IMG/VR virus record: IMGVR_UViG_3300042389_000221
Location: 1-30,687 of that record
DNA length: 30,687 nt
DNA from: a virus
Reading direction: 5' to 3' (one strand)
Shown here: positions 3,625 to 30,687 of the stretch, piece after piece
Numbering within the stretch: the stretch's first letter is position 1
Layout: each line of letters begins with the position of its first letter
Notes under the pieces: model-generated
The model's database searches: none
What the model was told of the DNA's origin: nothing
Seen by the model: the letters and a program-made list of their open reading frames with translations, nothing else
Made by a program: the position numbers and the translations under genes

Positions 3625-5022
3625 ATGCCCTACTACATCAGTGACCAAATGACCGACTGCGCAGGGTGGGCAACCATCAAGGCTGATACACCTGACAGCA
3701 CACCAGAAACAATTGGTTGTCATCAAACAAAACAAGATGCAATTGACCAGATGATTGCTGTGTCATTGTCTGAAGAAATAGAACCAATGGGTGATTGGGC
3801 AACGCGCAAACTTTTGACTGATGCAGAACTGTTCAGTGATGATGACATCAATGACCAAGTTGAAGGTATGCCTATGACACCAGAACTGAATCAGGCTGAA
3901 CCTGCAATGGAAGTTGAAGCATTGCAACGTGCATATGAAGCAGTGAAAAGCATTCTTGATGAAATCGCTGAAAAGATTGGTGAAGTATCAGTTGAACCTA
4001 TGGTTGAATCTGAAGATGAAGTTGAACTTGAAGTTGAAATGGATTCAAGAGAACAACGACAGATTGACCTATCAGCACCACAGTTCATGCGTGATAATGC
4101 AAAGCGTGGTCTTGCATACCATGAAGAAGGTTTGTCTGGTGATGGGCTAGAGCCACAGACAGTTGAAGATGCACGCAAGATGGCATCAGGTGAAGTGACA
4201 CCTGAGAAGTGGCGCAAGATTGCACCGTGGATAGCACGACACATGGTGGACTTAGAAGCAGCAGATGGTGAAATCACAGCAGGTGTGGTGGCTCATCTTC
4301 TGTGGGGCAGTGGTTCTACAAAGGAAGAAGCACAAAGAACAATGGACTACGCACAACGCATCATTGACCAACTTGACGCAGAACTTGAAGAAGAACGCAA
4401 TGTGCCTGCACAGCGTGAACACCGTTGGGTGATTAGCGCAACTAATGAACAGCGCAAGCAGATTGCATACACAAATCTAGAACTGCGTGCGCTTGATGAT
4501 TCTGAAGATGGCTGGACTGTTCGTGGATATGCAGCAGTATTTGATTCACCATCAGAACCCCTACCTTGGACTGAGTATGTCAAGCGTGGTGCTTTCACCA
4601 AGACCATCAAAGATGGTGCTGATGTCCGTTTGTTGATTGACCACACTGGTGTTCCATTAGCACGCACCAAGTCAGGCACATTGACCCTGCGTGAAGATAA
4701 CAAGGGTCTGTTCATGGAAGCACGCCTAGACCCCAACAACCCTGACGCAGTGAAGATGCGTAGTGCGTTGATGCGTGGTGATGTCACACAGATGTCTTTT
4801 GCTTTTGAAACTGTGAAGGATTCTTGGAACAGTGACAGAAGCGTACGTGAACTGAAAGAAGTGCGTCTGTATGATGTCAGCCTTGTGACCTATCCAGCGT
4901 ATGAAGAAACCAGCGCAGAGATTCGCAACACACATTCAACTGATACATCAGTTGCTACCGTTGCACCAACAGCACTTCGCAAAGCACAAGTTGCACTTGC
5001 GATTGCTAGAGCCGTCAACTAG
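3625..5022 (+). CDS. Prohead protease (HK97-type) with a long N-terminal extension
   Basis: This 465-residue protein carries the capsid maturation protease in its C-terminal third. Catalytic His340 lies in LLIDHTG and Ser391 in TQMSFAF, with the VRGYAAVFDSPSEP entry motif near residue 299. The first 290 residues are extra: an N-terminal MPYYISDQ domain (1-60), an acidic linker (120-145) and a helical domain at about 150-255 (APQFMRDNAKRGL, then PWIARHM and VVAHLLWG). These may act as scaffold or delta domain. An in-frame TTG nine bases earlier is possible, but the AGGA at 3612-3615 is placed for the ATG used here. Confidence 0.93.
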   Translation: MPYYISDQMTDCAGWATIKADTPDSTPETIGCHQTKQDAIDQMIAVSLSEEIEPMGDWATRKLLTDAELFSDDDINDQVEGMPMTPELNQAEPAMEVEALQRAYEAVKSILDEIAEKIGEVSVEPMVESEDEVELEVEMDSREQRQIDLSAPQFMRDNAKRGLAYHEEGLSGDGLEPQTVEDARKMASGEVTPEKWRKIAPWIARHMVDLEAADGEITAGVVAHLLWGSGSTKEEAQRTMDYAQRIIDQLDAELEEERNVPAQREHRWVISATNEQRKQIAYTNLELRALDDSEDGWTVRGYAAVFDSPSEPLPWTEYVKRGAFTKTIKDGADVRLLIDHTGVPLARTKSGTLTLREDNKGLFMEARLDPNNPDAVKMRSALMRGDVTQMSFAFETVKDSWNSDRSVRELKEVRLYDVSLVTYPAYEETSAEIRNTHSTDTSVATVAPTALRKAQVALAIARAVN

Positions 5023-17538: not shown

Positions 17539-18125
17539 AGTATCCATATCAGAAACTTGTATTGCCATCTGTCTTGAAGGGTCAGGTGAACGGCAGACTT
17601 GATAAGTCTTTGCTGGCACGCGTGAACACAGGTGGCAAGATGGTCAAGCCTGCAGCAGTTGCATTCAATGCTTTGTATGAAGAAGCAAAGAAGGCTGGAA
17701 TCACACTGCGCAACATTGGTGACTATCGTTCGTACGAAGGACAGTTGGCAATGTTCCTTGACCGTTACGAACCAGCAAAACCAAATGACCCACGATTGAA
17801 CAAGCCACGTACAGTCACGCGCAAGTTTGAAGGCAAGGTGTGGATTCTCAAAAAAGGCAAAGCACCATCTGCTGCACCAGACCCCACAGGCAAGTCAGGT
17901 TCAAACCATGGTTGGGGTCTTGCAATTGATTTGGCTGTTGAAGGTAAAGGTGGACAGATTGTTGCGCTTGCTTCTGCAAAGCGTGCGTTGAAGTTCATGT
18001 GTGAGACAGCACCCAAGTATGGGTTCTTTCTTCAGGGTGATAATCCAAAGTCACCTGAGTTTGAAGCGTGGCATTGGCAGTATTGCGCTGGTGATTCCAC
18101 GCCACCTGCGTTGCAGGTTCAGTAG
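17535..18125 (+). CDS. Endolysin, D-Ala-D-Ala carboxypeptidase-like (peptidase M15)
   Basis: This 196-residue zinc peptidase cleaves cell wall peptides for lysis. Zinc ligands are visible as His125 and Asp132 in SGSNHGWGLAID and His180 in EAWHWQY, with Glu177 as likely catalytic base. YRSYEGQLAMFLDRY (residues 64-78) is also characteristic. No signal peptide is present, consistent with release by the adjacent holin, and no separate wall-binding domain is seen. The start is GTG, overlapping the holin stop. Confidence 0.92.
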   Translation: MKYPYQKLVLPSVLKGQVNGRLDKSLLARVNTGGKMVKPAAVAFNALYEEAKKAGITLRNIGDYRSYEGQLAMFLDRYEPAKPNDPRLNKPRTVTRKFEGKVWILKKGKAPSAAPDPTGKSGSNHGWGLAIDLAVEGKGGQIVALASAKRALKFMCETAPKYGFFLQGDNPKSPEFEAWHWQYCAGDSTPPALQVQ

Positions 18126-18131
18126 GTCATG

Positions 18132-18167
18132 GGTGGGGCTGGTTGCTGTCCATCAGCCCTGCCCACC
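18132..18167 (+). terminator. Possible terminator after the endolysin gene
   Basis: GGTGGGGCTG (18132-18141) can pair with CAGCC and CCACC (18154-18167) with a four-base bulge. The outer GTAGGT/ACCTAC (18122-18127 and 18165-18170) offers an alternative pairing. No T-run follows. It would separate the late structural/lysis transcript from the promoter below. Confidence 0.4.
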
Positions 18168-18170
18168 TAC

Positions 18171-18242
18171 CTGAAACCCTTGCGCCATAAGGCTTTGGGG
18201 AATAGTTGCATCTCCCCTGATAAATGGTGCTAATCTGTCTGC
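18171..18242 (+). promoter_or_regulatory. Leaderless promoter with upstream dyad element (copy 1)
   Basis: The dyad AAACCCTTG-N6-AAGG (18174-18192, extended by CTTTGG) lies upstream of TTGCAT (-35, 18206-18211). A 19-base spacer and a TGC-extended -10 TAATCT (18231-18236) follow. The ATG of the next gene begins six bases later, where transcription should start. The dyad centre is 60 bases upstream of that ATG. The same layout recurs at 23120 and 26865. Confidence 0.75.
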
Positions 18243-18644
18243 ATGACATCACGCAAGCACAACACACTTCTTCCACGCACAATCATCTTTGTTGCAACCA
18301 AAGCAGGCATGGAAATAGTCGCAAAAGACAATGCACCACAGCGTTGGGTCAAGTCCATCAGCAAGTCTGGTGAATTGACATATACAACAGACCCACGCAT
18401 GGCACGCCGATTCAAAACAAAAGAAGCAGCAATTGCTGTTTGCAACAACTACGCATCAGCAATCGTGATTGAACTTTATGTTGATGAACTGCGCTGGACA
18501 GACCCTGCTGATGATTGTGGTTTCACTTACATGGGCTACTACAACGGCAAGACTGGTTTGAACTACAACCTTGGAACAGGTGAACCTGTGCAACCACCAG
18601 CGAACTACACGCGCATGATGGAAATCTTGAATGGTGGTGAGTGA
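18243..18644 (+). CDS. Hypothetical protein from a leaderless message
   Basis: This 133-residue protein has no recognised family. The N-terminal half has alternating strands and helix (RTIIFVATKAGMEIVAKDNAPQRWVKSIS, then DPRMARRFKTKEAAIAVCNNY), resembling small phage proteins that read a value and adjust it. The second half has DCGFTYMGYYNGKTGLNY. No signal peptide or membrane segment. The ATG is six bases after a -10 box, with no Shine-Dalgarno sequence. It is the first gene of a three-gene unit ending at a strong terminator. Confidence 0.75.
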   Translation: MTSRKHNTLLPRTIIFVATKAGMEIVAKDNAPQRWVKSISKSGELTYTTDPRMARRFKTKEAAIAVCNNYASAIVIELYVDELRWTDPADDCGFTYMGYYNGKTGLNYNLGTGEPVQPPANYTRMMEILNGGE

Positions 18645-18838
18645 TGAACACACCATTGACACACCAACTGCAATCAGGAACAGTCACCTATCTTGACCCA
18701 CAGATGCAACAGCAATCAGTGCAGGGTGATTTCTACATTCAGCACAACAACATTGTGGTCTGTCGCAAAGTACGTGGGCGCAATATGTTTGCACTGTGTC
18801 ACATTGATTCAGTGCTGGACTTCACACCAGCCGAATAG
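18644..18838 (+). CDS. Hypothetical small protein
   Basis: This 64-residue protein is coupled to the preceding stop (TGATG), with GGTGGTGAG as a likely ribosome-binding site. It is probably beta-rich (GTVTYLDPQ, then GDFYIQHNNIVVCRKV and MFALCHIDSVLDF), like a small SH3/OB-type fold. The function is not recognised. An in-frame GTG three bases earlier is possible but is less well placed. Confidence 0.65.
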   Translation: MNTPLTHQLQSGTVTYLDPQMQQQSVQGDFYIQHNNIVVCRKVRGRNMFALCHIDSVLDFTPAE

Positions 18839-18853
18839 AGAACAGCAGAAGAT

Positions 18854-19099
18854 ATGAACAAGACAGGCTTCACCAATCAATCCAAAGCCAAATGCAAAAC
18901 CTGTGCAACAGTCATTGCTGCTGGAACAGGAATCTACGACAACGGCAGCACATACTGCACTGAAACAACCATCTATCAAGATGGTGATGACACGTGGTTC
19001 TTGTGCTTGCCTGCATACAACTTACGCACGAACAGCAATCATCAAGACATTGATGCTGCATATCTTGCAGAGAAAAAGCGTCGCACTTCACGACAATAG
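18854..19099 (+). CDS. Hypothetical small zinc-binding-type protein
   Basis: This 81-residue protein has a CxxC (residues 15-18, KCKTCATVIAAGTGIYDNG) followed by further Cys at about 35 and 51, which suggests a zinc-ribbon-like fold. The end is basic (EKKRRTSRQ). It is the last plus-strand gene before the terminator hairpin and faces the convergent minus-strand genes. Small CxxC proteins of this sort are common in actinophage accessory regions, but their roles are unknown. Confidence 0.7.
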   Translation: MNKTGFTNQSKAKCKTCATVIAAGTGIYDNGSTYCTETTIYQDGDDTWFLCLPAYNLRTNSNHQDIDAAYLAEKKRRTSRQ

Positions 19100-19104
19100 A
19101 AAAA

Positions 19105-19146
19105 GCCCCACAGCAGGCAGGAAACCAAACAAGCCTGCTGTGGGGA
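19105..19146. terminator. Bidirectional terminator hairpin between convergent operons
   Basis: CCCCACAGCAGGC (19106-19118) and GCCTGCTGTGGGG (19133-19145) form a perfect 13-bp stem with a 14-base loop. A run of five A residues (19100-19104) precedes it, giving a U-tract for the minus-strand transcript. For the plus strand the downstream ATCTTT is weaker. It separates the plus-strand unit ending at 19099 and the minus-strand unit ending at 19152. Confidence 0.9.
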
Positions 19147-19151
19147 CATCT

Positions 19152-19409
19152 TTACAGTGACCACCATTCCCTGCCCCACATGGCAGATGGGTGGCAACCA
19201 AGCCTGATGGCGATTCTGTCGGCGCGTGAATAGTGAATCGTTGCTGAACCTTCAGATGCACGCCACTTCATAAGTGTGCCTACATTGACACCAAGCAGGT
19301 CTGCAGCGTCTCGCACAGGTAGGTCATTGACCACGCGCAGAATTGGTGTTGTTGATAGGCGTGCTGTCCGTTCACGCTTCCAGACATCTTCAACACCAAC
19401 TTCTGCCAT
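19152..19409 (-). CDS. Small DNA-binding protein, helix-turn-helix (excisionase-like)
   Basis: This 85-residue protein has a helix-turn-helix at about 31-50 (PVRDAADLLGVNVGTLMKWR), similar to MerR/excisionase-like small regulators. A C-terminal motif follows (residues 60-85, YSRADRIAIRLGCHPSAMWGREWW). The C-terminal motif recurs in the protein at 29218, so it appears to be a shared module. It is translated just after the Cro-like gene, 3 bases downstream. There is no integrase in the window, so it may regulate transcription rather than excision. Confidence 0.75.
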   Translation of the reverse strand: MAEVGVEDVWKRERTARLSTTPILRVVNDLPVRDAADLLGVNVGTLMKWRASEGSATIHYSRADRIAIRLGCHPSAMWGREWWSL

Positions 19410-19412
19410 GCG

Positions 19413-19670
19413 TCAACTTTCTGTGTGCTGCCAATAAGCAATCGCCATAATCACTGAACCTTGTGTTGCACCTGTTGCTTCTTCAATTGCTGCAAGATGG
19501 TTCACTGATGGCAGGGTCTTTCCTTGTTCCCATGAACTAACCAATGGCTGTGTCACGTTGATGCGCTTTGATAGTTCACGCTGGCTGATACCTGCATTCA
19601 TGCGTGCAGCAAGCAACACTGTTGCACATTGCTTCAACTGTTCTGCTGGCACTTCTTGTTTCTTTGGCAT
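19413..19670 (-). CDS. Cro/CI-type helix-turn-helix repressor
   Basis: This 85-residue protein has an HTH_3 domain at about residues 11-75: LKQCATVLLAARMNAGISQ, RELSKRINVTQPLVSSWEQGK and a third helix LPSVNHLAAIEEATG. It is likely a DNA-binding repressor or Cro-like protein. The start is the ATG with AGGACAG upstream. An upstream in-frame extension of 68 residues would run back through the transglycosylase gene and is not used. It lies in a minus-strand operon. Its target may be the dyads upstream of the leaderless promoters or sites in the 20173-20387 region. That is inference. Confidence 0.85.
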   Translation of the reverse strand: MPKKQEVPAEQLKQCATVLLAARMNAGISQRELSKRINVTQPLVSSWEQGKTLPSVNHLAAIEEATGATQGSVIMAIAYWQHTES

Positions 19671-19695
19671 GGTTTGCTGTCCTGTCCTAGAAGGG

Positions 19696-20172
19696 TTACT
19701 TGTTACTGATAGTAGCAGTGCTTGTTGCTTTCCAATGAGAACTGCCACCATTGTTCCAAAGATATGCAGCAACTGCGATATTGCATGAAGGCTTCTGAAG
19801 TATAAGAACATCTGATGATTTGCAGAGTGCTTTGGTAACAGACTTCCACGTTGAATTGATTTGAAGCAACCCAATGTCGTAAGACTTCACAGCACTGCAC
19901 TTTCTGTATGTTCGTGCTGGTGACAACTTGCAATTCTTGTGCGATTTGTTCTTGTGATAGTTCCAGCCGATAGCACGTGGTTGGCAACGACTTTCACGAA
20001 ACATGATTGGCGCGAACACTCTGACAGGCAGACCAGCCTTGCGCAGTGCGTCATGCCATTCAGGGCAGGGCAACCCTTTGATGGGTGCTGCGTCTGCGTC
20101 ACGCAGCGAGAAGGTGAGAAGTAGAAGATTGATGATGAATGCAATGATGATGAATCGGAATGTTCGTGTCAT
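19696..20172 (-). CDS. Secreted lysozyme-like transglycosylase
   Basis: This 158-residue protein has an N-terminal signal sequence (residues 1-29, hydrophobic FIIIAFIINLLLLTF, then ADAA cleavage region). The lysozyme fold shows catalytic Glu60 in PIMFRESRC, YDIGLLQIN (98-106) and the NNGG-x-HW end (141-146). Six cysteines at 36, 63, 81, 92, 117 and 130 suggest disulfides, as expected for an exported enzyme. It would cut peptidoglycan glycan strands. It sits beside repressor-like genes on the minus strand rather than in the lysis cassette. AGGAAAGG upstream is a strong ribosome-binding site. Confidence 0.85.
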   Translation of the reverse strand: MTRTFRFIIIAFIINLLLLTFSLRDADAAPIKGLPCPEWHDALRKAGLPVRVFAPIMFRESRCQPRAIGWNYHKNKSHKNCKLSPARTYRKCSAVKSYDIGLLQINSTWKSVTKALCKSSDVLILQKPSCNIAVAAYLWNNGGSSHWKATSTATISNK

Positions 20173-20300
20173 GGTTGTGCCTTTCCTGCCACGCTCAATG
20201 GGTGTTTCAGGGTTGCTGGCTGTCTATGTACCCATCTGGCGTTTGCGCTTGTCTGAAGCCCATACAGCGTTGCTGGTAGTGCGCTGGCAGATTGTGTATG

Positions 20301-20315
20301 ACCACCTGTGGTGGT
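20301..20315. repeat. 15-base dyad in the minus-strand intergenic region
   Basis: ACCACC and GGTGGT are perfect arms around TGT. It lies in the 215-base space between the replication-initiator gene and the transglycosylase gene and could be an operator for the latter. Nothing else clear is seen in this space: no convincing -35/-10 pair could be fixed on the minus strand. Confidence 0.4.
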
Positions 20316-20387
20316 TGAGTAGGGGACAGGTTCAGGTTCTACCCTAGACAGACCCTGTGCCATTTCCGTGTCACCTGTCTGAAATCC

Positions 20388-21152
20388 TTACTGTGTGCGA
20401 CATTCGCACCAGCGTGATTTGTGTTGCTGTTCATCAGCGTCAAAGTCAACAATGAAACCAGCACCACCACACACAACACAATCAGCATCACCAATGACAT
20501 CTGGCATGATGCGCTTCACCAACGCAGGCTGAGTCGCAATCAACTTGTTCAACTGCACATCAAGCATTGTTGCGCTAGGCACACTCAACTGCATCAACGC
20601 TGTCGTGACCTGCTGTTCAGTCCAGCCAGACTTCAATGCACCATTGATGATTGCCAGCAGTGAATGCCATGCACCCTTTCCTGTTGGTGTCTTTCCACCT
20701 GTTCGTTCTTTGTATGCAGTCCACCATTGTTCAGCAATTGACTGCGCAGCAGTAGGTTCTTGACTTTGTTTCACACTGACTATGGTTTCTGTGTCGTTTT
20801 TGTCCCTACCCCTTGTGGCGATTTTGTCGCTAGGTAGGGACATTTCTGACGCTACCTGTGGAACAGTTATCACTTGATAGTGATTGCTTGTCAGGTCACC
20901 ATTTGCGCTCACACGTTGACGCTTGTTGACAGCACCAATTGCAATCAGTTCTGTCAATGCTCTATCAATTGACTTGACTGTGCAGTTGCATTTGGCTGCA
21001 AGTGTTGCGCGTGATGGGTGGCATTCACCTGTGTCTTTGTCTGCATATCGTTGCAACGTGGCGTACAGTCGCACAGCAGTTGCTGTGATGTCTGCGTACA
21101 AGACCCATTCAGGAATGATGCTGAAGTAGTTATCTGCTGTGATGCGTTTCAT
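20388..21152 (-). CDS. Replication initiator-like protein (winged helix plus C-terminal zinc motif)
   Basis: This 254-residue protein has three parts. The first (1-95) is a winged helix-turn-helix of the type found in phage initiator and DnaD-like proteins (IPEWVLYADITATAVRLYATLQRYADKDTGECHPSRATLA, then CTVKSIDRALTELIAIGAV). The second (about 135-215) is helical, resembling a DnaD-like domain. The third is a Cys motif (C225, C228, C249, C251) typical of a zinc site. In the absence of polymerase or helicase genes, it probably loads the host machinery. The start is the ATG after GGTAGGA. An upstream in-frame ATG adds 23 unlikely residues. Confidence 0.75.
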   Translation of the reverse strand: MKRITADNYFSIIPEWVLYADITATAVRLYATLQRYADKDTGECHPSRATLAAKCNCTVKSIDRALTELIAIGAVNKRQRVSANGDLTSNHYQVITVPQVASEMSLPSDKIATRGRDKNDTETIVSVKQSQEPTAAQSIAEQWWTAYKERTGGKTPTGKGAWHSLLAIINGALKSGWTEQQVTTALMQLSVPSATMLDVQLNKLIATQPALVKRIMPDVIGDADCVVCGGAGFIVDFDADEQQHKSRWCECRTQ

Positions 21153-21237
21153 TGTTCCTACCGTTGACAGTTGATGCGACAGCCAGAGATACAATGACAT
21201 CTGGCTTCTTGTCCCCCACAAGGATTCATCAAGATAG

Positions 21238-21275
21238 TGCCTGTGTGCATCTCTATGTGAGAACGCACACAGGCA
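21238..21275. repeat. 11-bp inverted repeat in the divergent promoter region
   Basis: TGCCTGTGTGC (21238-21248) and GCACACAGGCA (21265-21275) are perfect arms, with an inner TCTC/GAGA pairing. It lies between the divergent initiator-like gene (21152) and the exonuclease gene (21335), in a 182-base spacer. It could be an operator, a transcript hairpin, or part of a replication origin. A smaller inverted repeat (GCCAGA/TCTGGC) lies at about 21182-21205. Confidence 0.75.
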
Positions 21276-21334
21276 TTGTCATTTATCAGCAACAGTTCTC
21301 AAAGGCTGACACACCCATCTGACAAACTGCCAGC

Positions 21335-22255
21335 ATGAAAACAATTCAGAAACCAGAACACGGCAGCCTTCAATGGTTAGAGACACGACACAAGCACAAC
21401 GGTAGAACAATCGTTGGTGCTTCAGAAGTGTCAGCAATCATGGGTGTCAATCCATACAAAACAATTACAGACCTAGCCATTGAGAAACTGCAGCCACCAA
21501 TGGTGCGCGACAAGAATGACGCAATGAAGCGTGGCATCTTTCTTGAACAGGGATTGCTTGACTACGCCAGCGCAGAACTTGGTTGCACAATCGTGACACC
21601 AGCAGAAATGTATTTGAATGACAGAATCATCAGCACACTTGATGGTGTCACCAATCAGGCTTCACGATTGTTTGAAGCAAAAACCACAACAGGGTGGGTA
21701 CAAGGTGACGCGCCATTGCCAGAATGGTTTTGGCAAGCACAAGCGCAGATGTATTGCACTGGCTGCACCACAGTCACATTCATTGTTCTTGACCGTCAAC
21801 TACGCATCACAATGTTTGACATCACACGTGATGATGAATCAATTGCAGTGATGGTTGAAAAAGTTGAAGCGTTCTGCACAGCGATTGACAATGAATCCTT
21901 GCCTGATGACAGCCCATTGACAGCAGAGCAGGTCACTGCACTGCACCCACAACCAGATGCAGGCGAGATTGAACTAGGCGCAGCAGGGCTGGAACTACTG
22001 CAACGCTGGCAATCAGCAAAAGAAATGCTGAAGCATTACGAACAAGAAGAACAATCACTGAAAGATGCGCTTGCAAATCTTCTGCGCAACCATGACGCAG
22101 GCACGATTGACGGTCAAAAGGTTGTCACATTCAAATCACAGAACACCACACGCTTTGACCAGAAAGCATTTGGGGAAGCACACCCTGACCTAGTCAAGCA
22201 GTATCAGAAAGCGTCATCATTCAGGGTGCTGCGACCAGTGAAGGGTGCAATCTGA
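21335..22255 (+). CDS. YqaJ-type recombination exonuclease
   Basis: This 306-residue nuclease of the lambda-exonuclease fold (YqaJ family) would chew 5' ends for recombination. Catalytic residues are visible: Glu71 in RGIFLEQGLLDYA, Asp103 in ISTLDG, and Glu114 and Lys116 in LFEAKTT. VGASEVSAIMG (about 27-37) is also typical. It is paired with the ERF annealing gene, which starts at its stop codon (TGATG). No Shine-Dalgarno sequence is seen at the ATG, and a possible -10 CAAACT lies six bases upstream. Confidence 0.93.
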   Translation: MKTIQKPEHGSLQWLETRHKHNGRTIVGASEVSAIMGVNPYKTITDLAIEKLQPPMVRDKNDAMKRGIFLEQGLLDYASAELGCTIVTPAEMYLNDRIISTLDGVTNQASRLFEAKTTTGWVQGDAPLPEWFWQAQAQMYCTGCTTVTFIVLDRQLRITMFDITRDDESIAVMVEKVEAFCTAIDNESLPDDSPLTAEQVTALHPQPDAGEIELGAAGLELLQRWQSAKEMLKHYEQEEQSLKDALANLLRNHDAGTIDGQKVVTFKSQNTTRFDQKAFGEAHPDLVKQYQKASSFRVLRPVKGAI

Positions 22256-22983
22256 TGTCTGAAATATTCAAAGCATTGAATGAAGTGATGAAAGAAGTTG
22301 GTGCTGTTCGCAAGAACGAACGCAACACACATCAGAACTTCAACTTTCGTGGCATTGATTCAGTCATCAATGCTGTGTCACCAGCGTTCAGGAAGCATGG
22401 CATCTTCTGCACACCATCAGTCATCAGCAGTGAATATGAATCTGTGCAGGTGGGACAGAACAGAACAGTGATGGGTCATGCGCGTGTGATGGTCACGTAC
22501 ACATTCCATGCAACAGATGGAACATCAGTGCAAGCAACTGTCAGTGCAGAATCAATGGACAGTGGAGACAAAGCAACAGCAAAAGCAATGAGTGTTGCTT
22601 ATCGCACAGCACTACTGCAGACACTGTGCCTACCAACAGATGACGCAGACCCTGATGCAGACACATATGAACGCTCACCAGTTACTGCACCAGAACGCAA
22701 ACAAGAAACAGTACGAACACCACGCGCACCACAAACAAACAACAACAGCAATCAACAACAGCAACGCAAAGCACCACTGCGAAGTGATGCACAAGCAAAC
22801 CTGATGCGCTCACTACTTGAACAATGTGAAGTTGATGAACAACTTGTGATTGATTCATTCAAAGTGCGCATTGATGAAGCAACAGTTCCACAAGCAAAAA
22901 CAATCATTGATGCGTTACTGCGTTTGAAGAAGAATGAAATTGAAATTGAAATCAATGCAGATGGCACACCAATCATTCGTTGA
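22255..22983 (+). CDS. erf: ERF-family single-strand annealing protein
   Basis: This 242-residue recombinase anneals complementary strands. The N-terminal domain (1-140) matches ERF proteins: VRKNERNTHQNFNFRGIDSVINAVSPAFRKHGI, then VMGHARVMVTYTFHATDGTS and GDKATAKAMSVAYRTALLQTLCLPTDDADPD. A polar Gln/Asn/Pro-rich linker (about 155-175) separates it from a C-terminal helical domain that often binds partner proteins. It overlaps the exonuclease gene by one base, a conserved pairing in phages. Confidence 0.92.
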   Translation: MSEIFKALNEVMKEVGAVRKNERNTHQNFNFRGIDSVINAVSPAFRKHGIFCTPSVISSEYESVQVGQNRTVMGHARVMVTYTFHATDGTSVQATVSAESMDSGDKATAKAMSVAYRTALLQTLCLPTDDADPDADTYERSPVTAPERKQETVRTPRAPQTNNNSNQQQQRKAPLRSDAQANLMRSLLEQCEVDEQLVIDSFKVRIDEATVPQAKTIIDALLRLKKNEIEIEINADGTPIIR

Positions 22984-23152
22984 TGGTGACTTGTTCAAGG
23001 TTGCGAATCAACGTGGTGTGTTCGTGTTCAGGGGCTGGAATGCTGATGGGTCTGTCAGGTGTTTTGGTGGCACTAGGGGCAGGGAAAGATGGCGCAGTTT
23101 CCCTGTGTCAGCAGGGCTGAAACCCTTGCAAAATAAGGACTTGAAGAAATGA
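22961..23152 (+). CDS. Small protein overlapping the ERF end, unknown
   Basis: This 63-residue ORF overlaps the ERF gene by 23 bases in another frame. The sequence DGDLFKVANQRGVFVFRGWNADGSVRCFGGTRGRERWRSF looks like a real small beta protein of a kind seen in actinophage accessory regions. The start is uncertain: in-frame ATGs at 22934, 22955 and 22961 all lie within ERF coding sequence, and no clear ribosome-binding site picks one. Its 3' end contains the dyad of the next promoter. Confidence 0.6.
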   Translation: MAHQSFVDGDLFKVANQRGVFVFRGWNADGSVRCFGGTRGRERWRSFPVSAGLKPLQNKDLKK

Positions 23153-23189
23153 CTTGCAAGCCATGAAAAGTTGTGCTTATAATCCCTGT
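23117..23189 (+). promoter_or_regulatory. Leaderless promoter with upstream dyad element (copy 2)
   Basis: AAACCCTTG-N6-AAGG (23120-23138) is followed by TTGCAA (-35, 23154-23159), an 18-base spacer and a perfect TATAAT (23178-23183). The ATG of the next gene is six bases on. The dyad centre is 61 bases upstream of the ATG. The preceding CTGAAACCCTTGC run is the same as in copy 1. The dyad is inside the end of the small coding region at 22961-23152. Confidence 0.75.
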
Positions 23190-23525
23190 ATGGAAACAAC
23201 ATCAATCAAGTCAGAAAAAAGTTACCCCACTTACCGTGACCCCAACGGCGTTCTGTGCGCATTCAAAGGTGTCACTGAAGGTTCACGTGGCAAGCGTTTG
23301 GTGGCATACATCAAGCGTGATGACCGTGAATGGATTGACGGTCGCACAACAGTTCCTGCTGGTGAATGGGTCATCTTTGGTAACTCAGTAAATGTTGATG
23401 CTATGGACAGGCGCGTGCGCTGGCGACAGAACAACGGCTGGTGCGTGCGATACTGCTGGATTGACATTGACAACCCAATGACCCTGAAGCAAATCGCAGC
23501 CTTCAACAACATCATCAACCAATAA
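23190..23525 (+). CDS. Hypothetical protein from a leaderless message (MET-start family)
   Basis: This 111-residue protein begins METTSIKS. The start is set by TATAAT six bases upstream, although an in-frame ATG exists further up. The body has an alternating beta pattern with many charged residues (LVAYIKRDDREWIDGRTTVPAGEWVIFGN, then VRWRQNNGWCVRYCWIDIDNPM), a soluble small-domain look. There is no family that I recognise. It shares only its start region with the other leaderless genes at 25166, 26934 and 27188. Confidence 0.75.
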   Translation: METTSIKSEKSYPTYRDPNGVLCAFKGVTEGSRGKRLVAYIKRDDREWIDGRTTVPAGEWVIFGNSVNVDAMDRRVRWRQNNGWCVRYCWIDIDNPMTLKQIAAFNNIINQ

Positions 23526-23555
23526 CCAACAACAATCAACAAAGGAAACCAAGTC

Positions 23556-24050
23556 ATGAAAAAGTCAGAGATTGAAACAATCATCACAGCAACACCAGAA
23601 GCAATCTTCACAGAGAACACAAAGTTTGGTGACAACTTCATCATTGTGGGCTTTGCACATCATCACAAGAACAAATATTCAAACGGCACGATTGTTGCAC
23701 AGGTCAAGCGTGTGTATTTCTACAAGGGTGAAGTCAGCGTGTCAGACACAGTTCAACGCAAGTCACTGCGCACAATCGTTGATACACAGTGGCTATCACT
23801 GAAGGAATATGAGACATACTCAATCCAGAAGGAACAGCGTCAACAGAACGCAGCGCAGTATCGCAAGCAACAACAAACACTGATGAGCGACATCAAGCCT
23901 GAACTGTATGAAGCATTGAAGGCTTGTGGCATTGACAACAAAGCATGGAACTTTGGTGACCCCACGTTCAAGATTGAAGTTGATGTAGACAATGCAGAAC
24001 AACTGTTGAAGGTTCTGCGAGCATTCGCAGCACAGCAGGTAACAGCATGA
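23556..24050 (+). CDS. Hypothetical protein
   Basis: This 164-residue protein is preceded by the recurring AAAGGAAACCAA ribosome-binding element at 23541-23552. The N-terminal about 80 residues are beta-rich (NFIIVGFAHHHKNKYSNGTIVAQVKRVYFYKGEV). The middle is a Gln-rich helix (SIQKEQRQQNAAQYRKQQQTLM) and the C-terminus is an alpha/beta region. No catalytic motif is seen. It overlaps the winged-helix gene by ATGA, suggesting a common transcript. Confidence 0.75.
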   Translation: MKKSEIETIITATPEAIFTENTKFGDNFIIVGFAHHHKNKYSNGTIVAQVKRVYFYKGEVSVSDTVQRKSLRTIVDTQWLSLKEYETYSIQKEQRQQNAAQYRKQQQTLMSDIKPELYEALKACGIDNKAWNFGDPTFKIEVDVDNAEQLLKVLRAFAAQQVTA

Positions 24051-24544
24051 GCGACCAGCCAGACCTGTTCAACATCACTGATGATGATGCGCTGCCATAC
24101 AACGGAACAGCAGGTCATGTTGACCAGCCAGCCAGCACTGCACGCGCACACACAGAAGCCGATTCAGGCACAGCCAAAGCAAGAGCATCAGCAGTGCTGA
24201 AACTTCTGTATGAACACCCAATCGGATTGACCTATCAGCAAGTAGGAATGAACCTAAATCTGCATCACGGTCAATCATCTGGTGCGCTTTCAACACTGCA
24301 CAAAGCAGGTCTTGTGTTTATGACTTTTGAACGCAGGAACAAGTGTCAGGTTTATGTTCATGCTGCATACCGTCACGATTATCAAGACCACGAACGGATT
24401 GACACACCTGCACAAACCAAAGCAGGCAAACGCAAAGATGACATGGAACGCCTACTGCAAGCAGTCATCATTGGTATTGATATGGGCAGGGTGCGTGACA
24501 GCGTTGTTGAAGCAATTGTGAAAGAACTGCGCAACACTGACTGA
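24047..24544 (+). CDS. Winged helix-turn-helix protein
   Basis: This 165-residue protein has an acidic disordered start (1-40) and a winged helix at about 43-104 (KARASAVLKLLYEHPIGLTYQQVGMNLNLHHGQSSGALSTLHKAGLVFM, with the wing at ERRNKCQVYV). The C-terminal part is helical. It probably binds DNA and is one of four candidate regulators in the window. The domain is typical of MarR/PadR-type or phage-specific winged helices, but no specific partner can be named. Confidence 0.75.
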   Translation: MSDQPDLFNITDDDALPYNGTAGHVDQPASTARAHTEADSGTAKARASAVLKLLYEHPIGLTYQQVGMNLNLHHGQSSGALSTLHKAGLVFMTFERRNKCQVYVHAAYRHDYQDHERIDTPAQTKAGKRKDDMERLLQAVIIGIDMGRVRDSVVEAIVKELRNTD

Positions 24545-24557
24545 TACCATCAGCCAT

Positions 24558-25010
24558 GTGACAGCAGAAGAACAACCACGCAAAGGTGACTGCCCATGTG
24601 GCTGTGGTCTTTTTGGCAACATCACCAATCAACGCCACGTGCGTGGTTGTGTCTGCAATCGTTGCAGGGGCGCACGCAATCGTCGTAAGGGTCTTGCAAA
24701 GCAGCGCACAGCACGCAAGCAACTTGGTGTTGCACCATCACACAAGTTTGGTGACGGCAATGAAGAACGCTGGCAATCAATGTTCGCCAATGAAGTCAAA
24801 GCAGGGAAACAGATACAGCCTGCTGTCACTGCATGGTTACGAATTGAACAGCAGGTGCTGTCAAACAATCCTGACTTTGGTGGCAGGCACAAACCCACGC
24901 GTGCTGTCTTGATGCCTGATGGCTGGTCTGATGGGCTAGTGATGGTGCGTCTGTCCGTGTGGGCTGAAGTGATTGCGCCAGCCTTGGAAGCCTTCTATGG
25001 GGAAGCCTGA
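24558..25010 (+). CDS. Putative Holliday-junction resolvase/endonuclease with N-terminal Cys-rich region
   Basis: This 150-residue protein has a GTG start. The Cys-rich N-terminus (CPCGCG at 12-17 and CVCNRC at 31-36) is followed by RGARNRRKGLAKQRTARKQLG. The next region contains EERW (69-72) and EVKAG (79-83), the latter resembling the ExK of PD-(D/E)XK nucleases, then DGWSDGLVMVRL. This overall order recalls actinophage resolvase-like proteins. It lies among recombination genes, which fits. Function is inferred from motif order, not from an alignment. Confidence 0.65.
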   Translation: MTAEEQPRKGDCPCGCGLFGNITNQRHVRGCVCNRCRGARNRRKGLAKQRTARKQLGVAPSHKFGDGNEERWQSMFANEVKAGKQIQPAVTAWLRIEQQVLSNNPDFGGRHKPTRAVLMPDGWSDGLVMVRLSVWAEVIAPALEAFYGEA

Positions 25011-25025
25011 CAGCCTGCCAGAGCG

Positions 25026-25106
25026 CACAGGAAGCCCTGTGAGCGTTCGTGGGGGTTTGCAGGGGCTGGATTAGCCCAAGCCCTATCAGCAAGCCTTCTA
25101 GGGGCT
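25026..25106. other. Three consecutive stem-loops in the gap before the leaderless gene at 25166
   Basis: CACAGG/CCTGTG (25026-25041, 4-base loop), GGGCT/AGCCC (25063-25077) and AGCC/GGCT (25092-25106) follow one another within a 155-base gap. GGGGCTGGA occurs twice (25062 and 25101). The gap has no ORF. One stem may be a terminator for the upstream genes, but no T-run follows any of them. It could be a small RNA. Confidence 0.4.
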
Positions 25107-25153
25107 GGAAAAAAATCTGCCCAAAATGCGCATGAAGGGTCATCAGATGTGCT

Positions 25154-25165
25154 TATAATGTCTGT
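25154..25165 (+). promoter_or_regulatory. Leaderless promoter without the dyad (-10 TATAAT)
   Basis: The TATAAT at 25154-25159 is preceded by TGTGCT as in the promoter at 23178, and the ATG begins six bases later. No good -35 is seen, and the AAACCCTTG dyad is absent from the expected position. The stem-loop AGCC/GGCT (25092-25106) occupies the corresponding place. Confidence 0.7.
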
Positions 25166-25363
25166 ATGGAAACCAACACCACCTTCACCAACAAGAACAC
25201 AACCTTCAAGATTGAACACATCAAAGAACACACAAGTGAAGTCATCACCAGCCTTGGTTGGTCACACTTTGCAGCAGTGTCACGTGTGAAGGGTCGCAAG
25301 ACCTACTACGCAAACCTGTTGATTGTTGATGGCGCAATTGTTCACAGCAGCGTGGTGATGTGA
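25166..25363 (+). CDS. Hypothetical small protein (MET-start family)
   Basis: This 65-residue protein has a leaderless start beginning METNTTF. It is predicted alpha/beta (FKIEHIKEHTSEVITSLGWSHFAAVSRVKGRKTYYANLLIVDGAIVHSSVVM). There is no recognised family and no membrane segment. It is coupled to the next gene by TGATG. Its opening bases ATGGAAACCAA are the same as those of 26934 and 27188. Confidence 0.75.
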   Translation: METNTTFTNKNTTFKIEHIKEHTSEVITSLGWSHFAAVSRVKGRKTYYANLLIVDGAIVHSSVVM

Positions 25364-25665
25364 TGCAAGCATCAACCAACACCAGAGCAAAACTCACTGC
25401 AAAGAAAATCAAAGTGGGCGACATGATTGGTCTGATGCACAACTTCATTGGCTGCACAACAGACAACGAATACATCTTTGACACTGATTCGCCATTAGCA
25501 CCTGCCATTCGTGGGTGGGTTGATTATGTTTGTGAATACAAAACAATCATTGAAGTATCAGCGACCAAGCAAGGTAGTCGCACAGTCACAATCGTGACCT
25601 GTGAAGATGGTTCAACATACGAACTGAACTCAAGAAACGCCTATGAAGCAAAGGTTGCGCACTAA
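25363..25665 (+). CDS. Hypothetical small protein
   Basis: This 100-residue protein is coupled to the preceding gene (TGATG). The sequence has KKIKVGDMIGLMHNFIGCTT, a GxTI-type beta segment, then ATKQGSRTVTIVTCEDGSTYEL, consistent with a small beta-barrel (SH3- or Tudor-like) domain. No enzymatic motif is seen. An in-frame GTG three bases upstream is a less likely start. It ends one base into the next gene. Confidence 0.7.
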   Translation: MQASTNTRAKLTAKKIKVGDMIGLMHNFIGCTTDNEYIFDTDSPLAPAIRGWVDYVCEYKTIIEVSATKQGSRTVTIVTCEDGSTYELNSRNAYEAKVAH

Positions 25666-25862
25666 TGACCAAGCCACACACATCAATCAACCAACTGATT
25701 CTTGACAACAAAGACTTGTCAATGTTTTCAATCGTGCGCGTCAACCAAGGCTGGCAAGTCACTGATTCACGTGACGGATTCTGCAACCACCCACGCATCT
25801 ACAAAACAAAGCGTGCAGCACAACTTGCAATCTGCGCTGTCGTAAAGCAGGCAATGCAATGA
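25665..25862 (+). CDS. Hypothetical small protein
   Basis: This 65-residue protein is coupled to the preceding gene by TAATG and to the methyltransferase by ATGA. The sequence reads like a compact domain: IVRVNQGWQVTDSRDGFCNHPRIYKTKRAAQLAICAVVK, with a strand-turn-strand start and a helical end, similar to the small proteins that follow the replication genes in other phages. Its job is unknown. Confidence 0.7.
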   Translation: MTKPHTSINQLILDNKDLSMFSIVRVNQGWQVTDSRDGFCNHPRIYKTKRAAQLAICAVVKQAMQ

Positions 25863-26896
25863 CCAACAATAAGCCAGTCACATTTGGCAGCCTGTTCAGT
25901 GGCGCAGGTGGCTTTGACATGGGACTTGAAAGCGCAGGCATGACCTGCAAGTTCCAAGTTGAATGGGATTCACACTGTCAACAGATACTGCAATACCACT
26001 GGCGCGAGATTCCCAAATGGGAAAATGTGCAGAAAGTCAATGGTGCTGAACTTCCACCTGTTGAAGTAATCGCATGGGGTTCACCATGTCAAGACCTGTC
26101 AACTTCTGGTCAGCGTGCAGGGCTTGATGGCACAAAGTCATCAATGTTTTTTGAAGGAATCAGAATCATCAAAGAAATGCGAGAAGCAACACATGGAAAA
26201 TATCCAGTTGTCTCTATTTGGGAGAATGTATCAGGGGCAATCACTAGCAACAATGGTGATGACTTTCAGACAGTTCTACGGGAGATGGCAGAAGCAGGGT
26301 GTCATCACATTGAATGGAGAGTGCTTGACGCACAGTGGTTCGGAATCCCACAGCGCAGAAGAAGAATCTTTGTGGTCGCTGTGTGGGATTCTGCAACCAT
26401 CAGAACAAGTGGAGAACAAATACTTGCTGCAACCAGCGCACGTGCAAAAGATTTTGACAAAAGCAGAAGTGTTCAACAGGGAGATTCCTTACGAACTGAA
26501 AGCGATACTGGAACAAGCAGCAGAACAAGACAAGTAATCACATTCCTATCAGGTGCAATGATTCGTTTGGGTGGTTGTGTGTGGCACAACATTTCACCAA
26601 CACTTACAGCAGGACTTGAAAAGAACGGTGACAACATGATTTATCTGACTGACACCAAAGACGGCAAGCCCATCATCAGAAGATTCACTGAGATTGAATG
26701 CGAACGCTTGATGGGCTGGAATGATGACCACACACGCTTCAGGGCTGATGGAACAGAGACACGGTCAAGCCAGCGATACAAGATGATTGGCAATGGTGTT
26801 GCTGCCCCTGTGGCTAAGTGGGTTGGTGAACGCGTGATTGGTTTGCTACGTGGGCAAGACCAGCAAACCCTTGTAGGGCAAGGCTTTGGTGATTGA
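25859..26896 (+). CDS. DNA (cytosine-5) methyltransferase
   Basis: This 345-residue enzyme methylates cytosine in DNA using S-adenosylmethionine. Motifs are complete: I FSGAGGFD (13-20), IV GSPCQD with catalytic Cys77, VI ENV (122-124), VIII QRRRRIFVV (165-173) and X IGNGVAAPVAKW (about 310-321). The target recognition part (about 220-280) has GGCVWHNISPTLTAG. No restriction endonuclease gene is present beside it, so it probably protects the phage from host restriction or marks DNA rather than being part of a restriction pair. It overlaps the previous gene by ATGA. Confidence 0.95.
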   Translation: MTNNKPVTFGSLFSGAGGFDMGLESAGMTCKFQVEWDSHCQQILQYHWREIPKWENVQKVNGAELPPVEVIAWGSPCQDLSTSGQRAGLDGTKSSMFFEGIRIIKEMREATHGKYPVVSIWENVSGAITSNNGDDFQTVLREMAEAGCHHIEWRVLDAQWFGIPQRRRRIFVVAVWDSATIRTSGEQILAATSARAKDFDKSRSVQQGDSLRTESDTGTSSRTRQVITFLSGAMIRLGGCVWHNISPTLTAGLEKNGDNMIYLTDTKDGKPIIRRFTEIECERLMGWNDDHTRFRADGTETRSSQRYKMIGNGVAAPVAKWVGERVIGLLRGQDQQTLVGQGFGD

Positions 26897-26933
26897 CTTG
26901 CAATTAGATATCAGAACCCCTAATCTGATGGGT
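26865..26933 (+). promoter_or_regulatory. Leaderless promoter with upstream dyad element (copy 3)
   Basis: AAACCCTTG-N6-AAGGCTTTGG (26865-26889) matches copy 1 even in the extension. It is followed by TTGCAA (26898-26903), a 17-base spacer and TAATCT (26921-26926), and the ATG is seven bases on. The dyad centre is 60 bases upstream of the ATG. The dyad lies inside the end of the methyltransferase gene. Confidence 0.75.
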
Positions 26934-27146
26934 ATGGAAACCAACCACACACACATCACATCAGAAGTTGAACTTGCAGGTTGCCCTGCTGACGGTGGCA
27001 AGTGGGTCATCTACTGCGACCACTTTGACGCAGACAACAACCCAATCGGCACAGGCTTGTTGCAAGACACCAACAAGAAGCGTCTTGCACAGTGGCGCAA
27101 TCACAGCGACCAGTGGTGTCCACTTTGTCAGGAAGAAGGCAACTGA
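26934..27146 (+). CDS. Hypothetical small protein with Cys pair (MET-start family)
   Basis: This 70-residue protein begins METNHTH. It has DGGKWVIYCDHFDADNNPIGTGLLQDTNKKRLAQWRNHSDQWCPLCQEEG, with CPLC near the end and Cys at about 18 and 30, perhaps a zinc site. The leaderless start is set by TAATCT seven bases upstream. No family is recognised. Confidence 0.75.
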   Translation: METNHTHITSEVELAGCPADGGKWVIYCDHFDADNNPIGTGLLQDTNKKRLAQWRNHSDQWCPLCQEEGN

Positions 27147-27151
27147 TGAAT

Positions 27152-27187
27152 GCACAGACCATCAGCACTTGTGATACAGTCTCAGGT
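27152..27187 (+). promoter_or_regulatory. Leaderless promoter, weaker (-10 TACAGT)
   Basis: TACAGT (27175-27180) lies seven bases before the ATG of the next gene, and ATGCAC (27150-27155) is a partial -35. The AAACCCTTG dyad is not present at the expected position, only a distant CTTTG-N8-AAGG (27123-27139). Support comes mainly from the shared start arrangement with the other three MET-start genes. Confidence 0.5.
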
Positions 27188-27568
27188 ATGGAAACCAATC
27201 AGACACCACCATCACAACAGAAGCGCATTGGCGCATTGGGCAAAGTCTCATCAGCATCACAAGTTGATGACCTATGTTGGGAACTTGAACACTTGTGCGA
27301 ATCACTCAACTTGTCATTCACACGCTTTGATGATGTTGAAATTGCAACAACCAACAATCAAATATTCAACGCTGATGTTGTTGAGAAGTTCAAGTGCGAG
27401 ACACAATCGTTCACTGAACACATCTTGCTCATCAGTTCAGAATCGTATTCAGGCAACTACAGCGCACAACGATTGATGAAGAACCTTCGCAACGCAATCA
27501 AGATGCTGAAGTCAACAGAACAACTGTTCATCACTTGCCCTGATGACGGTTGCGACTACTGCCAATAA
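27188..27568 (+). CDS. Hypothetical protein (MET-start family)
   Basis: This 126-residue protein begins METNQTP. It is largely helical (SQVDDLCWELEHLCESLNLSF, then YSAQRLMKNLRNAIKMLKSTEQLF) with a Cys-rich end (CPDDGCDYCQ), which could bind a metal. No recognised family. The ATG follows a -10 box at seven bases with no Shine-Dalgarno sequence, and an in-frame upstream ATG that would add 32 residues is not preferred. Confidence 0.75.
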   Translation: METNQTPPSQQKRIGALGKVSSASQVDDLCWELEHLCESLNLSFTRFDDVEIATTNNQIFNADVVEKFKCETQSFTEHILLISSESYSGNYSAQRLMKNLRNAIKMLKSTEQLFITCPDDGCDYCQ

Positions 27569-28931: not shown

Positions 28932-29221
28932 TGGCAATCCACGCACAAGTCACAACCATCAACAATGATTTGTGGACTGTCCCCATCACACTGAAAGTGT
29001 GTATGGATTGGGAACGCTGGTCAGGCAAAACACTTGCAGCAATGGCAGACCCCACAGCAGCAGACTTTGCGTATCTCTGCTGGCGTGCGTGCCGATATGC
29101 AGGTGTTATCAGCAGGCTGACAACTTTTGATGCGTTCTCAGGGATTGTGTGTGGGTGGGAAATCACCAACATTCAACCCAATGGTATTGACCAACTAGAA
29201 GACTGGCTGAAAGACCAGTGA
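28931..29221 (+). CDS. Tail-assembly-chaperone-like protein in the accessory region
   Basis: This 96-residue protein has the pattern WTVPITLKVCMDWERWSGKTLAAM, then PTAADFAYLCWRACRYAGV and TTFDAFSGIVCGWEI. It aligns by eye with the true tail chaperone at 8318 (FVAFERTWNRSV, then LTDIAWLAWKTQIRL and FDIWLETVETI). It may be a second chaperone, an antagonist or an unrelated protein with a similar fold. It overlaps the neighbouring genes, so it belongs to the accessory operon. Confidence 0.6.
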   Translation: MAIHAQVTTINNDLWTVPITLKVCMDWERWSGKTLAAMADPTAADFAYLCWRACRYAGVISRLTTFDAFSGIVCGWEITNIQPNGIDQLEDWLKDQ

Positions 29222-29646
29222 ACAGATGCGCACACTGTGACCAACTGCTGTGGCAGTGTGTATGCCCCAACCACCCAACACCAAAGGAAACCAAAACAAT
29301 GGGACAACCAATCAAAGACATCACTGAACACGGAATCAGTATGTACCGATACAGACAATGCAGATGCGACATCTGCAAAGAAGCAGCAGCACAACAACGC
29401 AAACGCTTCAGACCAAAGAGTGACAACAAGCGCATCAGGCTTGATGGCGCACCGTTCGTGGCGCGTCTTATCAAAGACAATCGGCATGGTGCAATCAACA
29501 CACATCTGATTTCAAAGTGGCGCACATATGGCTTGGATATATACAACGCTGATGAATGGTGTGTGCGTCTTGGATACCACCCATCAGAAATATGGGGTCA
29601 GGACTTCTACCAAGACTGCTGTGAAGAAGAACTGGTTGATGCGTGA
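29218..29646 (+). CDS. Zinc-binding and DNA-binding-like protein
   Basis: This 142-residue protein has a GTG start overlapping the previous stop. The N-terminus has CAHC and CVC (residues 4-16), then RYRQCRCDICKEAAAQQRKR (44-63), common in actinophage Cys-rich proteins. The C-terminal module ISKWRTYGLDIYNADEWCVRLGYHPSEIWG (98-127) matches that of the protein at 19152. A strong AAAGGAAACCAA element (29283-29294) lies upstream of an in-frame ATG at 29299, so a shorter product of 115 residues beginning MGQPIKD is also likely. Confidence 0.65.
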   Translation: MNRCAHCDQLLWQCVCPNHPTPKETKTMGQPIKDITEHGISMYRYRQCRCDICKEAAAQQRKRFRPKSDNKRIRLDGAPFVARLIKDNRHGAINTHLISKWRTYGLDIYNADEWCVRLGYHPSEIWGQDFYQDCCEEELVDA

Positions 29647-30585: not shown

Positions 30586-30677
30586 ACCCCACCCCAAAGT
30601 CGCATCAGAGACGCACACAGAGCGTCTGACAGGCACTGCTGATAGCCCCTGCCCATGCGATTTTTCTAGGGTGGGGT
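30586..30677. repeat. Inverted repeats in the final non-coding segment
   Basis: ACCCCACCC (30586-30594) and GGGTGGGGT (30669-30677) are perfect 9-bp arms, enclosing a smaller AGACGC/GCGTCT hairpin (30609-30614 and 30622-30627). The 116-base segment after HNH has no ORF. If this is a circular or cohesive-ended genome, it precedes the terminase genes and may contain the packaging site. Confidence 0.5.
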
Positions 30678-30687
30678 ACTACTACAC

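Follow-up and report, generated by a model that had tools for sequence, protein, structure and literature searches.

A dyad at a fixed distance from leaderless-looking phage promoters as a putative operator of swappable genes

In cluster K mycobacteriophages, the ESAS promoters pair a SigA-like promoter with repeated imperfect inverted repeats and precede some of the small early genes of the right arm; Adephagia has seven copies (PMC3203893, PMC11373665). They are the closest published analogue of the promoters described here, which follow a dyad repeated three times in a 30,687-bp viral record (IMG/VR IMGVR_UViG_3300042389_000221; that whole stretch of DNA is called the window below). The genes of the window include those for a terminase, RecE/Erf recombination, a replication initiator and a C5-methylase. 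Judged from its sequence context, the dyad would serve a phage regulon of swappable genes as its positional operator, and the arrangement suggests that one regulator turns on a set of interchangeable accessory genes. As with ESAS, a multi-copy inverted repeat accompanies a SigA-like promoter before small genes. The sequences are not the same, however; the ESAS motif packs promoter and inverted repeat into 46–47 bp, whereas the present dyad lies wholly upstream, at −58, and its transcripts look leaderless. The 13-bp SAS GGGATAGGAGCCC, which is linked to ESAS and lies near the start codon, has no match in the window at two or fewer mismatches.

Cluster O mycobacteriophages carry 17-bp TGTTCGG-N3-CCGAACA repeats, mostly away from promoters (PMC4351075). 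These, too, form a repeated dyad specific to phages, and a dimeric protein is predicted to bind it, but the window dyads are locked to promoters. Class I activator sites of the CRP type, centred near −61, where the bound protein contacts the alpha-CTD and raises transcription, resemble the present sites in lying 5′ of the −35 box, in their helical-phase spacing and in their weak −35 boxes. The dyad is, however, not CRP-like in sequence (the CRP/FNR consensus TGTGA-N6-TCACA is not matched by the consensus of the 39 sites considered below), and the activator here is probably phage-encoded. In Aca (anti-CRISPR-associated) systems, a small helix-turn-helix (HTH) repressor is found with inverted repeats at the promoters of variable small genes, and its sites overlap the core promoter. 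The window has the same combination of a small HTH protein and inverted repeats at such promoters, and Aca10 (7xi5) is among the structural matches of its HTH protein at 19152, but the dyad does not overlap the core promoter and no Aca or Acr similarity emerged. Phage morons are likewise small genes between conserved genes, with a promoter, flanking hairpins and precise presence or absence; here, by contrast, many cassettes share one operator and would be co-regulated rather than autonomous. A literature search with the dyad sequence returned unrelated papers only.

The dyad, its promoters and their cassettes

The pattern AAACCCTTG-N6-AAGG matches the window exactly three times, always on the plus strand (18174–18192, 23120–23138 and 26865–26883), just where an earlier reading of the sequence alone (the sequence-only reading) had put it and nowhere else in the 30,687 bp. 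The symmetric unit is 23 bp long, AAANCCTT-N7-AAGGNTTT, with half-site centres 11 bp, or one helical turn, apart; two copies fit it without mismatch and one with a single mismatch (Table 1). No copy at one mismatch or fewer arose in 600 dinucleotide shuffles of the window, and the reversed control pattern has no match in it. The ATG codons lie 60, 61 and 60 bp from the centre of the 19-mer, as had been claimed, which corresponds to 58, 59 and 58 bp from the true dyad centre. The TTGCA(A/T) hexamer, said to follow the 19-mer at 13–15 bases, is found after 13, 15 and 14 bases. These −35 boxes are weak, and only the second of the three promoters passes a loose sigma-70 filter. From the sequence, the transcripts would be leaderless.

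Two copies lie within the 3′ ends of genes. The conserved open reading frame (ORF) 22934–23152 ends LKPLQNKDLKK and stop across copy 2; its AAA CCC codons are retained at the dyad arms, while the middle is variable. Copies 2 and 3 do not share a reading frame, and copy 1 lies outside coding sequence, so it is the DNA and not the peptide that is conserved. Selection on a peptide (K-P-L-x-x-K-G-L in frame) was rejected on the same grounds. A role as RNA hairpin or intrinsic terminator was also rejected: the dyad RNA folds no better than shuffles (z −0.9 to −1.5), which counts against a hairpin, and there is no T run. Rfam gave no family in the window or in nine dyad-bearing loci.

Relatives were gathered by their terminase, and their right arms were examined for dyads followed by a −10 box and an ATG. 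Among the 39 distinct dyad promoters found, the −10 box starts 47 bp after the dyad centre in 25, 46 bp in 11 and 45 bp in one; in the remaining two, at 67 and 66 bp, it is shifted by 20 bp, that is, by two helical turns, and the helical phase is kept. The ATG is 58–60 bp from the dyad centre in 37 of the 39. The element is present and aligned in related genomes, a strong outcome for the sequence-only reading, which had named absence or misalignment there as a refutation. Information is concentrated in the arms (about 1–2 bits per base), with little in the centre, and the consensus of the 39 sites is the same 23-bp unit as in the window. Arm variants AAAGCCTT...AAGGGTTT and AAACCCTT...AAGGCTTT occur on either side, as is expected if a symmetric dimer binds. 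By blastp, the 39 sites precede 32 unrelated protein groups. The pattern of dyad plus promoter is present in nine viral contigs, at least seven of them of the window's family, and has a single match, a Clostridiales metagenome-assembled genome, among the 84,980 prokaryote species of GTDB; together, the non-homologous groups and this near confinement to viruses support the proposal of a phage regulon.

The dyad promoters are gained and lost together with genes. In the relative G009/L155 the block 18170–19099 is missing; at this empty site the flanking hairpins stay and the dyad is gone. At 20389/20394 relatives carry a cassette of 400–770 bp that is absent from the window. Homology between window and relatives often stops at the dyad and restarts past the gene or genes (breaks at 18168–18169, 20389 and 23127–23138). 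Presence or absence between close relatives is thus seen at both 18170–19099, which has a predicted promoter and hairpins (predicted terminators) on both sides, and 20389/20394, and whole dyad-promoter-gene cassettes are moron-like units with one common, putative operator.

Some smaller features of these promoters are recorded here. The first four codons (ATGGAAACMAAC) are common to otherwise unrelated ORFs behind dyad promoters, for example those at 23190 and 26934, and are perhaps a signal for leaderless initiation or initial transcription. Two more leaderless-looking promoters of the window, at 25060–25166 (ATG 25166) and 27140–27188 (ATG 27188), have ATGGAAACC starts and no intact dyad; the first is similar to a long-spaced promoter at L152 10884, where the dyad is nearly intact. 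On the opposite strand, TAGGGT recurs 47–48 bp from the dyad centre, facing leftward genes (L152 10906, L153 9269, L154 8719, L159 7693 and L173 6370, dyad coordinates on the plus strand). It could be a mirrored, divergent promoter, and no leaderless start follows it.

Table 1. Positions of the dyads, promoter elements, genes and cassette features in the window
Feature	Coordinates	Strand	Basis
Dyad copy 1, AAACCCTTGCGCCATAAGGCTTT, centre 18185	18174..18196	+	pattern search and comparison with relatives
−35-like TTGCAT, 19-bp spacer (copy 1)	18206..18211	+	sequence
−10 TAATCT, 46 bp from dyad centre (copy 1)	18231..18236	+	
Leaderless-looking ORF after copy 1; homologue not found in relatives examined	18243..18644	+	
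Dyad copy 2, AAACCCTTGCAAAATAAGGACTT, centre 23131, in 3′ end of ORF 22934–23152	23120..23142	+	
−35-like TTGCAA, 18-bp spacer (copy 2)	23154..23159	+	
−10 TATAAT, 47 bp from dyad centre (copy 2)	23178..23183	+	
Leaderless-looking ORF METTS... (copy 2); homologue in L017 only	23190..23525	+	
Dyad copy 3, AAACCCTTGTAGGGCAAGGCTTT, centre 26876, in 3′ end of C5-methylase gene 25859–26896	26865..26887	+	
−35-like TTGCAA, 17-bp spacer (copy 3)	26898..26903	+	
−10 TAATCT, 45 bp from dyad centre (copy 3)	26921..26926	+	
Leaderless-looking ORF METNHT... (copy 3); homologues in G001 and G024 only	26934..27146	+	
Cassette 1: dyad, promoter and ORFs 18243, 18641, 18854; missing en bloc from G009/L155	18170..19099	+	genome comparison
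Strong hairpin (fold z −3.9) just 5′ of cassette 1, probably terminating the preceding gene	18120..18175	+	
Strong hairpin (fold z −6.0) where convergent genes meet at the end of cassette 1; probable terminator	19098..19152	.	
Scar of lost dyad cassette: left half-site AAATCCTTA retained, remainder replaced	20382..20404	+	
85-aa HTH protein, predicted lambda-repressor-like; best candidate dyad binder	19152..19409	−	
Cro/CI-like HTH_3 protein; less likely binder, present in dyad-free relatives too	19413..19667	−	
Second candidate binder: CRC-motif protein, C-terminal AD-x2-A/C-x2-LG-x-HP-x2-IWG signature as in HTH 19152	29218..29646	+	

Candidate binding proteins

The sequence-only reading had offered four proteins as binders: the small HTH protein (HTH 19152), the Cro-like protein (19413), a winged-helix protein (24047) and a Myb-like protein (28270). 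We compared the dyad-bearing phages with a sister clade that has no dyads (G025/G026, terminase 66%). HTH 19152, the Myb-like protein and the 29218 protein were found only on the dyad-bearing side, whereas the Cro-like, winged-helix and replication proteins are found on both, which makes 19413, 24047 and RepO less likely binders. The Myb-like protein falls to 37% identity among relatives. HTH 19152 is the most conserved of the three, at 76–96% identity in all close relatives that bear dyads and include its locus; it is the best candidate for the dyad-binding protein, although the assignment is not secure, for a reason given below.

The close family of HTH 19152 was found at 14 viral loci and in no GTDB genome, and tblastn of the protein against INPHARED gave no match. 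Its AlphaFold model (predicted local distance difference test, pLDDT, 87) suggests a lambda-repressor-like fold, with residues 19–85 aligning to DdrO, SinR, N15 Cro and P22 c2 (VIA Z 5–6.3); the Foldseek E-values are weak (>0.2), and the only Pfam matches, to HTH_23/HTH_17 and similar families, stay under the cut-off. When contigs were retrieved with the HTH domain and not with the dyad, their 842 kb held 17 dyads at one mismatch or fewer and no reversed control; this count takes in L239 (the L206 contig, first found via the dyad) and several related contigs, so that fewer of the 17 are independent. Among contigs retrieved with the Erf protein, those beyond the clade of the window that carry dyads also encode an HTH protein of the C-terminal signature given in Table 1 (L334, L351, L368 and L375); the exceptions, L329 and L332, are both fragments of less than 9 kb. 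When the leaderless promoters of distant HTH-bearing contigs were checked for palindromes, the AAACCCTT dyad was found in clade C only.

One such contig, L330, which encodes a diverged orthologue of HTH 19152, has five leaderless promoters (ATGs at 4626, 13561, 14728, 15810 and 16416; TATACT...ATGGAAAAC and similar). They share a different element, approximately ATTTYnnGAAAT with a CAC-containing stretch before it, about 43 bp 5′ of the −10 box. Two readings follow: operator and regulator have changed together, or the binder is a different protein.

Proposed activation and the alternatives

We propose that the dyad is the operator for a dimeric, phage-encoded HTH regulator. The operator would stand at one fixed distance, 58–59 bp 5′ of the start and on the same helical face, before weak leaderless promoters; from this upstream site the bound regulator would most likely recruit RNA polymerase, as class I activators do, and thereby switch on a number of small genes that are unrelated to one another. 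The operator, the promoter and the first codons (ATGGAAAC...) would form one block at the head of cassettes gained and lost as units, and a newly acquired gene would thus come under the phage's own control. We consider this account, taken as a whole, to be somewhat probable. The dyad lies wholly 5′ of the core promoter, keeps its helical phase and goes with weak −35 boxes, which is how a class I activator site is laid out. To that extent the class I site of the sequence-only reading is plausible; both protein binding at the dyad and activation rather than repression are our inference.

Several observations weigh against this account. In clade C (L206, L217) the dyad is 61 or 71 bp from the −10 box and stands beside TTGACA/TTGACT −35 boxes; the spacing rule is therefore lineage-specific and not universal. 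The dyad is also found in phages of very different composition, without such promoters. Orthologues of HTH 19152 (E < 1e-24) are encoded in the distant contigs L330, L337, L341, L347 and L354, with no AAACCCTT dyad in the stretches examined, and for this reason its assignment is not secure. Conversely, the dyad-bearing L351, L375, L368, L016 and L191 show only a 29218-type protein in the stretches examined; the 29218 protein shares the C-terminal signature of HTH 19152 and could itself bind the dyad. The sister-clade comparison itself takes in few independent lineages. Finally, regulators of the lambda fold act as repressors no less often than as activators.

This last point leads to the alternative that survives best, although we judge it rather unlikely: the −58 site would be occupied by a lysogeny or early repressor, which would silence the accessory genes by looping between sites or by hindering polymerase from upstream. 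The predicted fold of HTH 19152 and its position beside the Cro-like gene in a leftward group would suit a repressor, as would the proposal that the cluster K ESAS analogue is repressed in lysogens (PMC11373665). However, no copy of the dyad overlaps the −35/−10 region, activation accounts better for the constant phase relative to the −10 box and for the weak −35 boxes, and no integrase was present among the right-arm proteins scanned, the left arm not having been surveyed for one.

It is less likely still that a host regulator, CRP-like or another actinobacterial activator, has been borrowed by the phage. Similar dyads do occur in unrelated phages, including L191, a contig of 64% GC in which the geometry (−57) is the same; however, only one of the 84,980 GTDB species matches the pattern of dyad plus promoter, although a host regulon of other spacing is conceivable, and to our knowledge the core CCTT-N7-AAGG is unlike actinobacterial CRP or LexA consensus sites. 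We regard it as very improbable that the dyad is a recombination site for cassette exchange, with promoter proximity secondary. The arms and 7-bp spacer have lengths like those of tyrosine-recombinase cores, and the breaks in homology at the dyad fit such a role; against this, the empty site in L155 has no dyad, which weakens the idea, cassettes lack two flanking dyads, and a recombination site has no need of the 45–47 bp phase to the −10 box. Least credible is that the repeats are duplicated promoters, alike through recent descent and bound by no protein: whole blocks, spacer and first codons included, are alike within subclades, and blastn pairs window copy 1 with the copy-2 locus of relatives, but the arms hold close to 2 bits against a drifting spacer and centre, they vary symmetrically, and the two-turn shift in spacing preserves phase.

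If class I-type activation by a phage regulator is correct, it provides a rule, open to test, by which phages with uncultured hosts could control new accessory genes: one operator, one distance and genes that otherwise share nothing. The regulated gene set of such phages would become readable from sequence, with a candidate regulator named, and the genes behind the operator would be good candidates for functions in host takeover or counter-defence. The system also offers a comparison case for the still unexplained ESAS promoters.

Wider occurrence and source of the sequence

The form AAACCCTTG-N6-AAGGNTTTGCG gives 66 stretches in viral contigs of about 25–70% GC, a few in relatives of the window, against none for the reversed control, a strong enrichment. 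Unrelated contigs with this or looser forms include L005, L028, L044, L086, L100, L121, L191 and L213. Tyrosine integrases make up 10 of the 40 larger flanking proteins, DUF5906/VapE primases are also frequent, and several stretches have iteron-like repeats visible in the sequence. Some looser matches are ordinary terminators, and an apparent −58 promoter in the unrelated contig L007 was rejected on inspection, its ATG being followed at once by TAA. We found no name for the palindrome in the literature. The wide occurrence reflects either one recognition system or several. A speculative and rather doubtful thought is that of an operator family spanning phyla, to which the dyad would belong in the form AAACCCTTG-N6-AAGGNTTTGCG. 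One shared, undescribed recognition event might then control the accessory, replication or integration modules of many phages that are not related, and the actinophages would have linked it to the leaderless promoters in front of swappable genes.

The window terminase has no INPHARED phage above 60% identity. Its top match, at 38%, is the Pontimonas phage phiPsal1, and the host is therefore likely to be an actinobacterium. The right end of the window (30640–30687) reads ...CTAGGGTGGGGTACTACTACAC, and homology with L153 and L154 continues to the final base of both records; this stretch is possibly the genome end.

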